DNA of 64,000 nt. It comes from Maribacter stanieri. Its GTDB lineage: Bacteria > Bacteroidota > Bacteroidia > Flavobacteriales > Flavobacteriaceae. Each line of letters begins with the position of its first letter. Positions within the stretch are counted from its first letter, which is position 1. Position numbers and translations under genes: made by a program. This document shows, one piece after another, positions 45,375 through 55,908 of this stretch. The stretch is taken from assembly GCF_900112245.1 (NCBI RefSeq), contig NZ_FOYX01000001.1:124001-188000 (forward strand). Direction: 5' to 3'. The notes under the pieces were generated by a model, which searched no databases, was not told where the DNA came from, and worked only from the letters and a program-made list of their open reading frames with translations.

Positions 45375-46184
45375 ATGATAAAATTCTTTCGGAAAATTCG
45401 TCTACAACTTATCTCTGAAAACAATCCTTCCTCTTCGACAGGTAGATTCAGTAAGTACTTACTATACGCCGTAGGGGAAATTATTCTAGTGGTTGTTGGA
45501 ATATTGATTGCCTTGGCTATTAACAACTCCAATGAAAATCGAAAAAGTTTAGCGCAAGAACAGGTAATTCTAAAACAGTTAGCAACAGATTATAAAGCGA
45601 ACCTTATTCAATTAGAAAATAAAATTGAAATGAGGCGTAGACTAATCGCTGAAAGCTTAAATGTTCTGGACATTACCGCAAAAGACAAAACTATAAGTGA
45701 AGATTCACTTTCTGTAATTTTCGCTACTTTTTTTATGGATCCAACTTTTGACCCCATAGAAAATGATGTGATGAATTCTGGCAATATTAAATTGATACAA
45801 AATGACTCACTGAAACAAGCTTTGTCTCACTGGACATCGGACGTTAAAGCCTATTCAGAATCTGAACATATACAACATGACCATTACATTTCCGAAATAA
45901 TACCTTTTATGAAAGAAGTAGGTATTATGCGTAATGCAAACCACGTTTTTTGGAGGGCACAAGAACTTAGAATGGGATTTTTGGATAAGGGTAAAAACGA
46001 CAAAATTTCAACCATCGGTAAAAGCCAAAAACCAATAGCTGTGGATGCTATTTTAAAAGACCCAAGATTAGAAGGTCTAGTCACCTTCATTTTTACATTT
46101 TCTCAAGTTTGTAATTTAGAGGGACAAACACTTAAAGAAAAAATGGAAAAAATTATTGAAATTCTTGAAAGTGAGATTGAATAG
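45375..46184 (+). CDS. DUF6090 family membrane protein
   Basis: A 269-residue protein typical of Flavobacteriia: basic start MIKFFRKIRLQLI, the linker SSSTGRFSKYLLYA, one membrane segment VGEIILVVVGILIALAINN, and a coiled extracytoplasmic domain. Families of this build are abundant in Flavobacteriaceae genomes, often in several copies. No function is established. It lies between methyltransferase and esterase genes on the same strand. Confidence 0.82.
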   Translation: MIKFFRKIRLQLISENNPSSSTGRFSKYLLYAVGEIILVVVGILIALAINNSNENRKSLAQEQVILKQLATDYKANLIQLENKIEMRRRLIAESLNVLDITAKDKTISEDSLSVIFATFFMDPTFDPIENDVMNSGNIKLIQNDSLKQALSHWTSDVKAYSESEHIQHDHYISEIIPFMKEVGIMRNANHVFWRAQELRMGFLDKGKNDKISTIGKSQKPIAVDAILKDPRLEGLVTFIFTFSQVCNLEGQTLKEKMEKIIEILESEIE

Positions 46185-51340: not shown

Positions 51341-51371
51341 ACCCATCCCTAGCCCCTCCCAAGAGGGGAAC
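51341..51371 (+). repeat. REP-like hairpin repeat, copy A (right-end type)
   Basis: ACCCATCCCTAG followed by the hairpin CCCCTCCCAAGAGGGG and GAAC. It is 22 bases after the serine hydrolase stop. It is followed by AACTAGCGTCTTTAAT, the same right flank as the end of the DUF559 element, so it looks like a solitary right end. Confidence 0.85.
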
Positions 51372-51463
51372 AACTAGCGTCTTTAATTAAAATATAATCT
51401 AAGAATAATTTTATGAAAACAGAAGTTTCAACTAACTCTAATTTCGCAATCAATAATGTACTT

Positions 51464-51904
51464 CTCCCCTCTTGGGAGGGGATTAAGGGGTGGGTCTTAC
51501 GATGAGAAAGATTATTCCATACAACCTAAATTTAGTTGAACTCGCTAGAATACTAAGAAACAACATGACTCTTGGTGAAATTGCGCTATGGAGAGAGATT
51601 AAAGGTAAAAAGCTAGGTCAAAAATTTAATAGACAAATTCCTATCGATCAATATATAGTTGATTTTTATTGCAAAGATCTTCAACTCGCAATAGAAGTAG
51701 ATGGTAGTATTCACTTTAAAGAAGGACACGAGGAAAAAGATAAGAAAAGGCAAGCACGCTTAGAATCTCTAGGAGTACATATGCTCAGGTTTTCAGATAC
51801 TGATGTGAAGAATAATTTAGATTTTGTTTTAGAAGAGATTAAAGTAATAATTGAGAAATTAGAACAAACAAGAACCCACCCCTAGCCCCTCCCAAGAGGG
51901 GAAC
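51464..51904 (+). mobile_element. Complete REP-bounded element carrying a DUF559 endonuclease
   Basis: A 441-base unit. The left boundary is an inverted repeat copy (51464-51495, minus orientation). The right boundary is a plus-orientation copy (51874-51904). The single gene begins 6 bases after the left repeat, and its last codons and TAG stop are inside the right repeat. Each end carries a hairpin of six-base arms (CCCCTC and GAGGGG). The left-end type has TTAAT where the right-end type has TAG. This tight fit of gene and ends is what a minimal mobile element looks like. No target-site duplication was established. Confidence 0.6.
51502..51885 (+). CDS. DUF559 endonuclease (Vsr-like fold)
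   Basis: 127 residues from the ATG at 51502. A GTG at 51490 lies inside the left repeat and is less likely. It matches DUF559, a PD-(D/E)XK-type family related to very-short-patch-repair endonucleases: RNNMTLGEIALWREI, YIVDFYCKDLQLAIEVDGSIHF with the acidic active-site residues, and RQARLESLGVHMLRF. The C-terminal THP and stop codon are encoded by the flanking hairpin repeat. Such genes recur in flavobacterial genomes beside the same repeats. Nicking or cutting of the hairpin ends is a testable idea, not a known activity. Confidence 0.9.
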   Translation: MRKIIPYNLNLVELARILRNNMTLGEIALWREIKGKKLGQKFNRQIPIDQYIVDFYCKDLQLAIEVDGSIHFKEGHEEKDKKRQARLESLGVHMLRFSDTDVKNNLDFVLEEIKVIIEKLEQTRTHP

Positions 51905-52006
51905 AGCTAGTGACTTTAAATAATTTTTTTAGATAAAACAGACGAAATAGTTCTTTTAAAAACGCAATTCCCCAACAACCAAAAACTCGCAACCAAAAAC
52001 GAAAAC

Positions 52007-52112
52007 CTCCCCTCTTGGGAGGGGATTAAGGGGTGGGTGCTGCGATGATGAAGATTTCATTGAACATACTAACTCAAAAGAACCCACCCCTAGCCCCTCC
52101 CAAGAGGGGAAC
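52007..52112 (+). mobile_element. 106-bp miniature derivative of the DUF559 element (REPIN-like)
   Basis: The left repeat in minus orientation (52007-52038) and the right repeat in plus orientation (52082-52112) enclose only 43 bases. The inner left flank GCTGCGATGATGAAGATT matches the gene start of the complete element (CTTACGATGAGAAAGATT), and the inner right flank AAAGAACCCACC matches its gene end (CAAGAACCCACC). It is therefore an internally deleted, non-autonomous copy. Confidence 0.7.
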
Positions 52113-52196
52113 AGATAGTAACTAAAATTGAATAATTGCAGACCTATACCCTTTACCTCACCCAACACTGGTATCTTGCATGTATAAACTACCCTT

Positions 52197-52421
52197 ATGA
52201 AAATCAATTTACTGACTTGTGATGCTCAAAGACCAGATAGAAGAGCGATAGCGAAATGCATTACAGAATTATCATCTAATGTTAGCGATTCGCTTGCCAA
52301 TGAACTTACAGATATTCTTTTAGAAGGTGATGCAGTAGCTATTGAAGTAAGCGATAAGAATTCTGGTTCAGCTTTAAGGGCTTTGCGAAAGCTGAGTATA
52401 GATTATGAGATTATAGAATAA
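52197..52421 (+). CDS. Hypothetical small protein in the repeat zone
   Basis: A 74-residue acidic soluble protein: MKINLLTCDAQRPDRR at the start, LSSNVSDSLANELTDILLEG in the middle and ALRKLSIDYEIIE at the end. The alternation of helices and strands looks like a real small alpha/beta fold. I do not recognise the family. It is placed between the miniature element and a second repeat family. Confidence 0.6.
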   Translation: MKINLLTCDAQRPDRRAIAKCITELSSNVSDSLANELTDILLEGDAVAIEVSDKNSGSALRALRKLSIDYEIIE

Positions 52422-52452
52422 GGCGTTCTACATTCAGCTCTTGTTAGCTTGT

Positions 52453-52700
52453 TCGTTATAAGTACTCTTGTCACTTCGGGTGAACTACGAGGTACGAAGA
52501 GTTTGTATCGAGAAACATTCGTGTACCAAAGGGTTCTCGATACAATTTTAAGTTCCCATTGCATTACAACTTAAAACCACTCGAACAGACGATGCATATT
52601 CAATTCAATAAATGTTAGCCCTTTCGTTCTAAGTAACATTGTCACTTCGAGTGAATTTTCGAAGATTGTTAAAATTTGTATCGAGAACTCGTTTGTCACC
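52453..52700. repeat. Two diverged copies of a flavobacterial GTCACTTCG-type repeat
   Basis: About 75 bases recur: GTTAGC...AAGTA...TTGTCACTTCGGGTGAA...TTTGTATCGAGAA (about 52449-52514) and GTTAGC...TTGTCACTTCGAGTGAA...TTTGTATCGAGAA (about 52614-52687). The first copy continues into a perfect inverted repeat, TTGTATCGAGAA at 52503-52514 with TTCTCGATACAA at 52534-52545. No gene is visible between 52422 and 53131. Confidence 0.65.
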
Positions 52701-52727
52701 ATCTCCCAACTTGCCAAAACCCAAAAT

Positions 52728-52758
52728 ACCCACCCCTAGCCCCTCCCAAGAGGGGAAC
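52728..52758 (+). repeat. REP-like hairpin repeat, copy D (right-end type)
   Basis: ACCCACCCCTAG plus the hairpin CCCCTCCCAAGAGGGG and the right flank GAACAGACCGTGACTGT, the same pattern as the end of the complete element. No matching left end lies close upstream. Confidence 0.85.
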
Positions 52759-52903
52759 AGACCGTGACTGTGATTAAGCTTATTAGATTAAGACCACACA
52801 ACAGCACCAAACTGCGCAATGGCACCTTTAGGGTTGGGTGAGCGGGGCATTGCAAAAACGCAACTCCCCATCCACCAAAAAACCCACAACCAAAAACGCA
52901 ATT

Positions 52904-52935
52904 CTCCCCTCTTGGGAGGAGATTAAGGGGTGGGT
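52904..52935 (-). repeat. REP-like hairpin repeat, copy E (left-end type, hairpin damaged)
   Basis: The minus-orientation repeat has one base change (GGGAGGAG for GGGAGGGG) that breaks the outer hairpin pair. It is followed by GCTACGATACTGAAGATTTCATT, close to the inner left flank of the miniature element, but no right end follows. The left outer flank has the recurring AACCAAAAACGCAA. Confidence 0.8.
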
Positions 52936-53131
52936 GCTACGATACTGAAGATTTCATTAAACTCCCTAACCAATTTCTTCTCAAGATTATTCCACTAAAA
53001 GCTTAGCAGAAATTAATAGTATCTATCCCTAAACAGTACCTTCTCAGCATAACTTCTTGAGTTTAAGATAGTATTGGTAAAGTTCAAGTATTAAAGCTGT
53101 ATACTATGAATGAACAATTAAAACAATAGAT

Positions 53132-53275
53132 ATGGGAATGATTAAGGATAGAAAGAAATTCAATAGAACAAAAGAGCAAACCAATCCAACGAATCCGACC
53201 GGTAATACCAATCAGCTGAACAAAGAATACAACATTGATAAGCCGACCATAAAAAAACAACAAAAAGATAAATGA
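53132..53275 (+). CDS. Small polar hypothetical protein
   Basis: A 47-residue frame: MGMIKDRKKFNRTKEQ, then Asn/Thr/Pro-rich (NPTNPTGNTNQLN), ending in lysine- and glutamine-rich KKQQKDK. It is probably disordered. It heads the group of small genes leading to the HPF-like gene, all on the plus strand. No family recognised. Confidence 0.5.
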   Translation: MGMIKDRKKFNRTKEQTNPTNPTGNTNQLNKEYNIDKPTIKKQQKDK

Positions 53276-53342
53276 TAATGGCTATAAAAAAGTGCTATAA
53301 CAATCCCTTTTAAAAAATATAATAAGATTAAAATCAGAAGAA

Positions 53343-53543
53343 ATGGAATCACAAAATGATCTTAATACTAATATTCGATTAACAACCATAAAAATACAGG
53401 AGGAACATCCAGAACTGGTTAAATACATAAATGAAATACCACGAATCTTTTTTAAAGATGAAGAAGAAGTAAATAACAAAGCGCTAAAAGGATATTTAGA
53501 TTCCCTAAATATGATACTAGAAACCTATTCAGAAAAACACTAA
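53343..53543 (+). CDS. Conserved small hypothetical protein
   Basis: A 66-residue acidic helical protein (MESQNDLNTNIRLTTIKIQEEHPELVKYINEIP, given here as the start region, residues 1-33 in two parts: MESQNDLNTNIRLTTIKI and QEEHPELVKYINEIP). It ends YLDSLNMILETYSEKH. Similar short proteins occur in Bacteroidota near stress and ribosome-hibernation genes, by recollection only. It starts 67 bases after the 47-residue gene and 12 bases before the HPF-like gene. Confidence 0.65.
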   Translation: MESQNDLNTNIRLTTIKIQEEHPELVKYINEIPRIFFKDEEEVNNKALKGYLDSLNMILETYSEKH

Positions 53544-53555
53544 AAAACTATACAT

Positions 53556-53876
53556 ATGACAATCCAGATAAATACAGACAAAACCATTAATGGAGAAAAA
53601 AGAAATGCCGATTTTTTTTCTTCTCAGATTAAAGAGGCATTACAAAGGTTTGAGTCTCACATTACCAGAGTAGAGGTTCATTTAAAAGATGAGAATGGAA
53701 GAAAAGACGGATTCAATGATATCTCGTGTCTGCTAGAAGCAAGAATAGAGGGCAGAAATCCCATTGCGGTTTCTAATCAAGCAGATACTATGGATCAAGC
53801 CGTAAAAGGTGCTATCGATAAAATTAAAACTGCTATAGAAAGTATTCTTGGTAAAATTCAAAAACAAAATCATTAG
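53556..53876 (+). CDS. HPF/RaiA family ribosome-associated protein
   Basis: A 106-residue short-form hibernation factor-like protein: beta-alpha-beta-beta-beta-alpha pattern, ITRVEVHLKDENGRKDGFNDISCLLEARIEGRNP split across strands 2 to 4, and the final helix AVKGAIDKIKTAIESILGKI. Members bind the decoding centre of the 30S subunit in stress or stationary phase. The C-terminal dimerisation domain of long HPF is absent. It is followed after 2 bases by a gene of the release-factor-like kind, suggesting coordinated action on ribosomes. Confidence 0.85.
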   Translation: MTIQINTDKTINGEKRNADFFSSQIKEALQRFESHITRVEVHLKDENGRKDGFNDISCLLEARIEGRNPIAVSNQADTMDQAVKGAIDKIKTAIESILGKIQKQNH

Positions 53877-53878
53877 AT

Positions 53879-54259
53879 ATGAAAGCAAAAAGTAATTTAG
53901 GTATTTGGATGGATCACTCCATCGCTAATTTAATTGATATCGATGCAAGAAAAGAATGTGGATCTATTGCATCTAGTTTTACATCAGATACAAAGGAAGA
54001 TGCATTGAACAGGAGCGAAAACCTTATGCATAATAAAAGACAGCAAATGAATGAAAAATTCTATGACACAATTGGAGCTCAAATTTTAAAATATAACCAT
54101 GTGCTGCTATTTGGACCAACAAACGCAAAAGTAGAATTGCACAATTATTTGAATAAAGATTCACATTTTAAGAATATTAAGATTGATGTAGCATCATCAG
54201 ACAACATTACAGATAATGAACAAGTAGCTTTTGTAAAAAATCATTTTGCTAAAGTTTAG
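53879..54259 (+). CDS. Small protein resembling bacterial eRF1-like/host-attachment proteins
   Basis: A 126-residue protein: NLGIWMDHSIANLIDID at the start, KFYDTIGAQILKYNHVLLFGPTNAKVELHNYL in the middle (helix, strand, GPTNAK turn), and IKIDVASSDNITDNEQVAFVKNHF at the end. The layout recalls the baeRF group of bacterial proteins related to archaeal/eukaryotic release factor eRF1. The likeness is from pattern memory, not a search. The 2-base gap from the HPF-like gene supports a ribosome-linked role. Confidence 0.6.
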   Translation: MKAKSNLGIWMDHSIANLIDIDARKECGSIASSFTSDTKEDALNRSENLMHNKRQQMNEKFYDTIGAQILKYNHVLLFGPTNAKVELHNYLNKDSHFKNIKIDVASSDNITDNEQVAFVKNHFAKV

Positions 54260-54333
54260 AATTCTGATAGAGCAATAGTAGTTGTACAAACGGAAGCGCC
54301 CAGCAACCAAAACCCACAAACAAAAACGCAACT

Positions 54334-54458
54334 CTCCCCTCTTGGGAGGGGCTAGGGGTGGGTGCTGCGGTGCACTAATTTCAACTGCAAACGCAGCTCA
54401 TTATATTCTCTTTACCCCCCTCTAATTTTTCTGACAGTTTTACGGAAACCCGTAAGAA
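54334..54458. repeat. REP-like repeat copy F with 95-bp flank (direct repeat unit 1)
   Basis: The minus-orientation hairpin repeat at 54334-54363 (TAG-type spacer) is followed by GTGCACTAATTTCAACTGC, CGCAGCTC, TATATTCTCTTTAC and the hairpin TTACGG-AAAC-CCGTAA. The whole unit recurs at 54768-54894 in the same orientation with about 90 percent identity by eye. The pair flanks the Ser/Gly-rich small gene. Confidence 0.8.
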
Positions 54459-54563
54459 GTTATGCAAAGTACTTTATAACTTGTGATATCGAGTAAAGTA
54501 TAATTTGAAATAAACATTTTACTGAAAGAATTAAACAATTATTAAATCTAAAAACAGACAATT

Positions 54564-54707
54564 ATGGCTAAATCTAGCGGAATGAAAAATGCACCAAGTA
54601 CAACTGGAAATAAATCTGGAGGTGGAAGAAGTAACGCACCAAGTAAATCTAGTGGAAGTTCTAATGGTTCTTCTTCTACATCGAAAGGCAGCTCAAAAGG
54701 AAAATAA
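54564..54707 (+). CDS. Ser/Gly/Lys-rich small protein
   Basis: A 47-residue low-complexity protein starting MAKSSGMKNAPSTTGNKSGG and ending STSKGSSKGK, with no hydrophobic segment. It has a clean start, a stop, and a hairpin 6 bases after the stop. It resembles short disordered stress proteins. Function is unknown. It sits between two 125-base direct repeats, so it could be a passenger of the repeat duplication. Confidence 0.55.
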   Translation: MAKSSGMKNAPSTTGNKSGGGRSNAPSKSSGSSNGSSSTSKGSSKGK

Positions 54708-54713
54708 TTAAAT

Positions 54714-54742
54714 ATGCACGATAAGTTTTACTTATCGTGCAT
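54714..54742 (+). terminator. Hairpin after the Ser/Gly-rich gene
   Basis: Perfect 12-base arms ATGCACGATAAG and CTTATCGTGCAT around TTTTA. The T tail is weak, so termination is likely but not certain. Confidence 0.7.
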
Positions 54743-54767
54743 TTAAATAACAACCAAAAACGCACAT

Positions 54768-54894
54768 CTCCCCTCTTGGGAGGGGATTAAGGGGTGGGTG
54801 CTTCTGTGCACTAACTTCAATTGCAAACGCAGCTCGTTATATTCTCTTTACACCCCCTTTATTTTTCTGACAGTTTTACGGAAACCCGTAAGAA
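54768..54894. repeat. REP-like repeat copy G with 95-bp flank (direct repeat unit 2)
   Basis: The minus-orientation hairpin repeat at 54768-54799 (TTAAT-type spacer) is followed by the same flank as unit 1 (GTGCACTAACTTCAATTGC, CGCAGCTC, TATATTCTCTTTAC and TTACGG-AAAC-CCGTAA). It runs directly into the CCCCTACCACTTT leader repeat. Confidence 0.8.
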
Positions 54895-55031: not shown

Positions 55032-55899
55032 GTTGCCACCAATTTGAAAAATGAACTGGAAAAAATACGAAAAGGAAATATTTGAAATTTTCAGAAATGA
55101 ATATCCAGATGCCGAAATAACTCTCGATGCGAAAATTGTTGGCAGATATTCCAAAAGAAGCAGACAAATTGATATTCTAATTGAACAATATGTTGCAGGA
55201 AATAGATTGAGAATTGCAATAGATGCAAAGTTTTTTAATAAAAAAATAGATGTAAAGACCGTTGAAAACTACATCTCTATGTTAAATGACATAGAAGCAC
55301 ATAAAGGACTTTTGATTACGAATGTTGGATATTCACAGACTGCTTTAAATCGAGCTTATTATGACCCGACTGACATAGAACTTGACATTTTGAATTTTGC
55401 CCAGTTAAAGGAATTTCAAACAGAATATGCTCTGCCCTTTGCCGGAAATAATGCTGTTGACCTATTCGCACCATTCGGTTGGATTATAGATGCTAGAAGT
55501 TGTCCCAATTGGTTAGCTACGCTTTATCAAAGAGGTGCTGAGTTTGATGTTGAAATGGACGAATGGATGTATGTAAACTTTTGGAACAGAAAAGAAAATG
55601 ATGACACCGTTGATGACTTATTAAAAATTCAAAAAGACGAATTTGAACAAGGTAATTATGAGGTTGAAATCGAGTATTTAAATACAATAAAAAGAAAAGA
55701 CTCTAAAGTTGTTTTAAGAAAGGTCAAATACAAGAAACATCCAATTCCTGAATATACTGGATTTGTGGAATTTGAGGATTTCATATTTTTTATTGTTATG
55801 TTTTCACCTGTCGAACTATCTAACAAAAATATAAGGAAAATGGAAAATATTTTGACCACTATAACACCTAGGAGAATTGAAATAAAAACTGGTGGCAAC
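55032..55899 (+). mobile_element. Single-gene cassette 1 (Mrr-like nuclease)
   Basis: The unit begins with GTTGCCACC (55032-55040), 11 bases before the gene start. It ends with the exact complement GGTGGCAAC (55891-55899), inside the last codons of the gene. Such complementary head and tail tags are what a gene cassette cut from a circular form with one recombination core would show, as in integrons. The next unit has its own different tag pair. Confidence 0.55.
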
Positions 55900-55908
55900 A
55901 ATGTATAA
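55051..55908 (+). CDS. Restriction endonuclease-like protein (Mrr/PD-(D/E)XK type)
   Basis: A 285-residue protein. Residues about 1-120 form a PD-(D/E)XK nuclease core: helix WKKYEKEIFEIFRNEYP, the RQIDILIEQ strand with the first Asp, IAIDAKFF as the second acidic residue and lysine, and GLLITNVGYSQTALNRA as the usual QxxxxA-type helix. The remainder is an unassigned alpha/beta region. No methyltransferase or helicase gene accompanies it, so it may be a stand-alone Mrr-like enzyme. It is the gene of cassette 1. Confidence 0.82.
   Translation: MNWKKYEKEIFEIFRNEYPDAEITLDAKIVGRYSKRSRQIDILIEQYVAGNRLRIAIDAKFFNKKIDVKTVENYISMLNDIEAHKGLLITNVGYSQTALNRAYYDPTDIELDILNFAQLKEFQTEYALPFAGNNAVDLFAPFGWIIDARSCPNWLATLYQRGAEFDVEMDEWMYVNFWNRKENDDTVDDLLKIQKDEFEQGNYEVEIEYLNTIKRKDSKVVLRKVKYKKHPIPEYTGFVEFEDFIFFIVMFSPVELSNKNIRKMENILTTITPRRIEIKTGGNNV

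Follow-up and report, generated by a model that had tools for sequence, protein, structure and literature searches.

Hairpin repeats in bacterial genomes are today explained by HuH transposases. The REPtron (TnpA-REP/RAYT, with REP/BIME sequences) combines one gene, alternating palindromes, non-coding copies and variants for each gene lineage, and it is outlined, in the relevant part of PMC8266576, as a HuH enzyme with a GTAG motif. Elements of the IS200/IS605 type have a TnpA Y1 transposase, and their subterminal hairpins come with a short guide-like segment. Transposons with terminal inverted repeats (TIR) and a DDE transposase (MITE) have short exact target duplications.

A second set of relatives is defined by the fold of a nuclease. 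The Vsr mismatch endonuclease nicks T:G mismatches and is linked to a cytosine methylase. Homing endonucleases of the EDxHD type, such as I-Bth0305I, spread by cutting a cognate site without the gene, into which they are then copied. Extra DNA-binding regions are described for them in PMC3943268. NGO0050 (3hrl), YcjD of E. coli and VsrA of Caulobacter belong to the same family, DUF559, as the protein studied here. According to the partial texts of the two papers, YcjD is a PD-(D/E)XK nuclease (PMC1189080), the Caulobacter DUF559 protein triggers the DNA-damage response when a methylase is missing (PMC12907096), and flanking hairpins are not described for either protein. Among the open-licence PubMed Central papers that name DUF559, in the portions of text available, none was found that treats repeats beside DUF559 genes as a topic. 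The system described below is therefore called new with respect to that literature, subscription papers and preprints lying outside its scope.

We describe herein a hairpin-framed DUF559 gene in a 64,000-nucleotide stretch of the Maribacter stanieri genome (referred to as the window). As in a REPtron, inverted palindromes flank the single gene and copies are dispersed. However, the enzyme is of the PD-(D/E)XK type, the genome is without Y1, and a purine foot stands where a REPtron has GTAG; no GTAG-type tetranucleotide was found beside the palindrome in the consensus of 203 Maribacter repeats. With neither Y1 nor GTAG, the unit is not a member of the REPtrons, although it may work like one. 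It shares subterminal hairpins and a short guide-like segment with IS200/IS605, but not the TnpA transposase. It resembles I-Bth0305I in fold, in its E, D and H residues and in the idea of spread by cutting; unlike the homing endonucleases, its protein is compact, no intron or intein was seen, and there are terminal hairpins and non-autonomous repeats. The fold is also common to Vsr, from which the unit differs in being small and hairpin-framed. As to the duplications of TIR transposons, direct repeats of greater length were seen here in 13 of 76 units. We show that the nuclease gene recurs with a hairpin at each end and that gene and hairpins, in part, vary together.

Results

Structure of the unit

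The DUF559 gene is the only gene between its hairpins (Table 1). The preliminary description placed its start six bases past the left repeat and its stop codon in the right repeat, and direct reading agrees with both to the base. On the left, a hairpin (51466-51481, CCCCTC-TTGG-GAGGGG) is followed by a linker and the purine foot AGGGGTGGGT, which ends at 51495, six bases before the ATG at 51502. The right repeat is an inverted copy of the left and contains the final codons ACC CAC CCC TAG (51874-51885) together with the hairpin at 51886-51901, and the stop TAG (51883-51885) is thereby supplied by the repeat. The CCCCTC/GAGGGG hairpin is perfect at both ends, as had been claimed, and the seven further copies announced within 3.5 kb are exactly accounted for: a scan yielded nine hairpins in total, starting at 51353, 51466, 51886, 52009, 52094, 52740, 52906 (with a single mismatch in the stem), 54336 and 54770, over a span of 51353-54785.

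Table 1. Positions of the features within the window
Feature	Position	Strand	Remarks
DUF559 (EDxHD/Vsr-like) nuclease gene	51502..51885	+	127 aa; TAG in right repeat; E65/D67/H71 invariant; fold match
Left end: hairpin, linker, foot AGGGGTGGGT	51465..51495	+	Direct reading; similar plan in other lineages
Right end (inverted copy of the left), with foot ACCCACCCCT and hairpin 51886-51901	51874..51902	-	Direct reading
Leader frame, 30 codons, crossing left hairpin; TGA overlaps nuclease ATG (ATGA)	51413..51505	+	
Upstream module, from the right-type (51353-51368) to the left-type hairpin (51466-51481)	51341..51495	.	
Downstream module, direct copy of upstream: hairpins 51886-51901 and 52009-52024	51874..52038	.	
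Connector, 43 nt, between facing left and right hairpins; start resembles nuclease gene start	52039..52081	+	
Right-type repeat, hairpin 52094-52109	52082..52109	-	
Right-type repeat, hairpin 52740-52755	52728..52755	-	
Left-type repeat, one stem mismatch (GAGGAG)	52906..52935	+	
Left-type repeat	54336..54363	+	
Left-type repeat	54770..54799	+	
Possible relic of a hairpin of the second DUF559 subtype	52821..52848	+	By eye; inference

With its loop restricted to YYRR, the exact repeat, CCCCTCYYRRGAGGGG, occurs eight times in the 4.46-Mb genome, all eight inside the 3.4 kb described here, and the exact hairpin with a free 4-base loop occurs 11 times; the reversed control gave 0 in both cases. 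Since eight of the 11 exact copies are local, the label "REP" attached to the repeat earlier fits other genomes better than that of the window.

Two kinds of hairpin can be distinguished in Maribacter. A left end (F) typically has ..CT before and ATTAAGGGGTGGGT after the hairpin; a right end (R), when the opposite strand is read, carries CTAGGGGTGGGT. Their usual order is R-(about 123)-F-(about 85)-R, from which G035, G027 and the arrays L191 and L192 deviate in spacing. Since the gene stands in place of one F-R connector, it has a copy of an R-F module on each side, both in direct orientation, and in the window these copies are 73% alike (51341-51513 versus 51874-52056). A fixed distance between the repeats, which had been suggested as a check, holds for most of the 12 Maribacter stretches with the gene: hairpin to hairpin, it is 420 nt in nine and 419 nt in one more. 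In Fulvivirga imtechensis (L058), the two R-F modules are 98.5% alike over 327 nt, which points to a recent event. The connector (52040-52081) resembles the start of the gene with a score reached by 6 of 2000 shuffles. The idea that it arose from the gene by deletion was rejected, this likeness being confined to the start side; the gene-end side was not significant (1394 of 2000 shuffles).

Some further observations concern the repeats. On one strand, four runs of G, as in the G-quadruplex pattern, are found at the repeat ends 51474, 52017, 54344 and 54778 (+) and 51342, 51875, 52083 and 52729 (-), by eye not in every lineage. The segment 52442-52655 recurs in G022 (L186:5087-6059) as several copies spaced at a period of 171 bp. 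In G004 and G008, what by eye is a putative histidine kinase gene contains one in-frame hairpin repeat (..KRTPLLGGVGGGSQSVQI..; L191:536 and L203:1870). An Rfam search gave a single match, to a microRNA precursor family and below the gathering score, which was taken as spurious.

A leader-type frame starts at -89 in 11 of 17 Maribacter sequences (one with a TTG start; in G035 the stop comes 12 bases earlier). G018 and G003 have a leader frame of similar length, and the remainder have none or a much shorter one. The frame and its position are kept in relatives; its amino acids are not clearly conserved. Pairwise differences by codon position amount to 138/170/212 in the leader versus 58/10/303 in the gene, which does not support a functional peptide. 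Because its amino acids appear nearly unconstrained, the leader is read as a device of translational coupling and not as a peptide with a task: crossing the left hairpin and stopping at ATGA, it would couple translation of the nuclease to a start in element-adjacent sequence.

The encoded protein

The protein matches Pfam DUF559 (PF04480) with an E-value of 3.2e-30 and 104.7 bits, against a curated cut-off of 20.6. E65, D67 and H71, which we take to be the EDxHD residues, are invariant in 61 aligned sequences, comprising the window's and those of 60 of the 80 named loci introduced below (five were left out for stops or frame and 15 by choice). A confident AlphaFold model (pLDDT 90, pTM 0.84) predicts the EDxHD catalytic fold. 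Its best structural match is the DUF559 structure 3hrl (NGO0050 of Neisseria; Z 16.0, rmsd 0.8); I-Bth0305I (PDB 3r3p) gives Z 12.4 with rmsd 2.3 over 95 aligned positions, and Vsr (1cw0) Z 9.9 with rmsd 2.2. Chains of the mitochondrial ribosome reach scores similar to that of Vsr (9.7-9.8). Holliday-junction resolvases (7.0) and TnsA (6.4) fall in a range in which a common arrangement may be of little significance. A weak PADLOC match, to a methyl-directed restriction enzyme model, was also obtained (2.9e-8). An Mrr-type restriction endonuclease gene (E 1.4e-7) lies 3 kb downstream, at 55051-55908 of the window.

A profile search of the window's genome for the Y1/HuH transposase (PF01797) gave 0 matches. 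Within the genus, Y1 is present in 10 of 36 genomes, namely 4 of the 20 that bear the repeat and 6 of the 16 others. With the recombinase search covering Y1, the DUF559 nuclease appears to be the best candidate enzyme for the hairpins. No relative of the window protein was found in the viral contigs searched, and DUF559 matches at E 1e-5 were confined to 2 of 50,697 phage records and 36 of 72,556 plasmid records; with so few matches, the unit is not chiefly a phage or plasmid module.

Association of the gene with flanking repeats

A scan of species genomes, using an alignment of ten relatives, supplied 80 named loci. For 76 of them (four had flanks too short), the 200 bases on each side of the gene were compared as inverted repeats with a threshold score of at least 30. 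Such repeats flank 52 of the 76 genes, versus 1 of 567 positions shifted within those loci (kinship ignored). The recurrence suspected in flavobacteria is thus real and wider, spanning several phyla: repeat-positive loci come from Bacteroidota, Balneolaceae, an ignavibacterium, a neomarinimicrobium, a nitrospina, a brevinema and two candidate-phylum genomes, several being metagenome assemblies. The 24 loci below threshold include all four cyanobacterial loci tested. That genes of this kind would mostly lack the repeats, which had been named as a disproof, is contradicted by these counts. Five long DUF559-domain proteins (scores 17-25) were uninformative as a negative control, because in these the flanks used for comparison are part of the open reading frame.

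Within the genus (36 genomes), the exact repeat is present in 16 of 16 genomes with the window's DUF559 subtype and 4 of 20 others (p 7e-7, kinship ignored), the subtype being defined by at least 70% identity (70-100%, broken copies included; other small DUF559 genes compared reach at most 53%). Two of the four exceptions, G008 and G031, have a second subtype at this locus, and G009 and G028 have one copy of the repeat each. The second subtype (G031:C4:423832-424146; G008:C3:4535-4849), found at this chromosomal locus together with hairpins of its own, is 41-42% identical over the aligned part. In G007, G017 and G024, which have small DUF559 genes and lack the window's repeat, other hairpins (scores 24-32) flank four of five genes: one of two in G007, one in G017 and both in G024. 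The remaining one of the two G007 genes and a further DUF559 gene of G018 are without flanking hairpins (scores 20 and 21).

Across the phylum (296 genomes), 124 genomes have a strong DUF559 profile match, and 58 of these hold at least three generalised hairpin-plus-foot repeats, as do 1 of 21 with a weak match and 15 of 151 with none (odds ratio 8 for 58/124 versus 15/151, kinship ignored). A reversed-pattern control ran in the opposite direction (3/124, 0/21 and 14/151, respectively). Repeats without the gene, the other proposed disproof, do exist in part, in those 15 genomes and in some E. coli, where the gene may have been lost in the past. In E. coli, a related repeat is on the 3' side of ycjD only. 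The ycjD region is covered to at least 80% at one place in 3362 of 5426 genomes, and its repeat-bearing flank is matched in 5348, at a median of 13 places; some repeats are kept in genomes without ycjD. As a source of strain-level empty sites ycjD was discarded, three strains without it having an unrelated operon after fabI.

Similarity of the protein and similarity of the repeat are correlated over 75 of 120 loci kept for the test (Mantel r 0.33, p 0.001; highest of 999 permutations 0.21; kinship ignored). Five units in G301 have visibly different hairpins, save L256 and L257, whose genes are the most alike and which by eye share CCCCCTTC..AAGGGGG, with a computed repeat score of only 0.38. 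A counter-example is G183, where the proteins of L247 and L248 score 0.75 and their repeats 0.33. Across lineages, most ends follow one plan: a pyrimidine arm, a purine arm and a purine foot. Among the 68 of 75 loci with a perfect hairpin (some of the other seven, e.g. L263, were compared as shortened pieces), the 5' arm is all pyrimidine in 61, and at least four bases of the purine arm recur as the foot just inside in 54. The match of arm to own foot exceeds that to swapped feet by a small but consistent amount (5.17 versus 4.69 bases, p 1e-4, 53 loci, kinship ignored), over a baseline that is high because feet are G-rich.

Copies of the unit and their surroundings

Whole copies at unrelated sites, non-coding copies and tandem arrays of the unit exist. 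G113 has two complete units, 86% alike, in which similarity stops at the hairpins and the flanks are unrelated. In the genus g57, which also has dispersed copies of about 34 nt, a unit-bearing block lies between the same two genes in four of eight species and is missing in four; the flanks are 93% alike between G198 and G135, the outer edges of the block are blurred, and a small second frame adjoins the unit. By eye, this short frame (about 57 codons; L276, about 1760-1925) is beside the unit in G198 and G089 and is gone with the unit in G135. Presence and absence of whole units, another suggested check, can thus be seen, but with blurred edges; an empty site clean to the single base was not found among them.

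At the der locus, seen in 30 of 35 Maribacter loci, hairpins are present in 12 (from one to five or more each) and absent in 18, some hairpin-free loci having another neighbouring gene. An insertion in the window's genome and G004, relative to an empty G000, was not upheld, recombination being as likely because the intergenic DNA of G000 by eye resembles that of G020. Nor was the difference between G004 and the window accepted as transposition, since it is a tandem copy of about 220 bp. The locus is mostly inherited in the window's clade, which counts against recent movement there. Beside the serine hydrolase gene, where its relatives have module-gene-module, G005 carries just one R-F module, in degenerate form; suggestively, this might be the cognate-site stage of a homing-type copying.

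Direct repeats scoring at least 30 lie outside the ends of 13 of the 76 units tested out of 123 (swapped pairs 0.5%). Some of these are hairpin arrays, and several are starts of the downstream gene. In G018, the left hairpin is preceded by, and in frame with, the first 49 bases of a DUF6090 gene; these recur, with 47 of 49 alike, 13 bases past the right end, so that an intact DUF6090 gene follows the unit. Ekhidna lutea (L052) has a similar duplication of a quite different DUF6090 start (32 of 36 alike). At four of six such loci, the left copy best matches its own downstream gene; the exceptions are G003 and L046. DUF6090 as a general target was dropped: the pattern holds at 5 of 152 loci (three of the 152 were included because they had been noticed beforehand), plus L052 by eye, versus 7 of 4376 control windows. 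DUF6090 genes form tandem families in the genus (window 45375-46184; clusters in G013, G007 and G003), and in a few loci one directly follows a DUF559 unit. Because they are clustered, truncated paralogues are a real alternative source of the duplicated starts.

Discussion

Taken together, these results suggest, with moderate probability, that the unit is an autonomous palindromic-repeat element with a Vsr/EDxHD-like PD-(D/E)XK nuclease as its sole gene and a REPtron-like way of working. The nuclease would recognise its own ends through pyrimidine arm, purine arm and purine foot, and would nick or cut there or at a target. Replication and repair by the host might then copy the unit, or a gene-less module, into the break, a process that would leave long direct duplications and tandem arrays. 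Of the earlier proposal of a nuclease-driven REP, the recurring gene-hairpin unit in a genome with no Y1 stands, and the drive by the nuclease is what we infer.

A more general reading is tentative, and we would sooner doubt than accept it. It supposes a widespread class of mobile repeats with a lone Vsr/EDxHD-type nuclease, recognition of hairpin ends, and repair copying with long target duplications; insertion would occur just inside gene starts, and the duplicated start would keep the target whole and lend a translation start to the nuclease.

Alternatively, the hairpins may be control or binding sites of the nuclease itself, either RNA hairpins in the leader and 3' end or operators, spread by tandem duplication, recombination and horizontal transfer and never by transposition. 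The leader frame with its ATGA overlap across the left hairpin, the inherited locus and tandem arrays whose length differs from one species to another all agree with it. Non-coding copies far from any gene, however, need a way to move, and the two full units at unrelated sites in G113 and the dispersed copies of about 34 nt in g57 need a mover; we consider it unlikely. An improbable reading, ranked below it, has another enzyme (a DDE, serine or Y1 recombinase) move the unit in trans as a passenger, with the nuclease as cargo. Modules that lack the gene, and repeats in genomes where no DUF559 was detected, speak for it, but repeats tend to differ with the nuclease, and Y1 is absent here and not associated with the repeat in the genus.

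Still less credit is given to a defence or addiction enzyme with the repeats as self marks or decoys. The PADLOC match and the nearby Mrr-type gene would fit such a role, but the unit has a single gene, and the repeats stand at its very start and stop. A plain REP/RAYT system, despite sharing the outline of a gene between a REP and an inverted REP, is refuted for this genome by the lack of any Y1 in the Pfam search, and chance GC-rich hairpins were rejected on reversed and shifted controls near zero, so that either is scarcely credible.

If the reading as an autonomous nuclease-bearing element is true, a second, unrelated enzyme class would be tied to its own hairpins, and many orphan GC-rich palindromes would have a cause. 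DUF559, a common family without an assigned function that includes YcjD of E. coli, would gain a role, and the compact pair of nuclease and hairpin would be amenable to tests at the bench.
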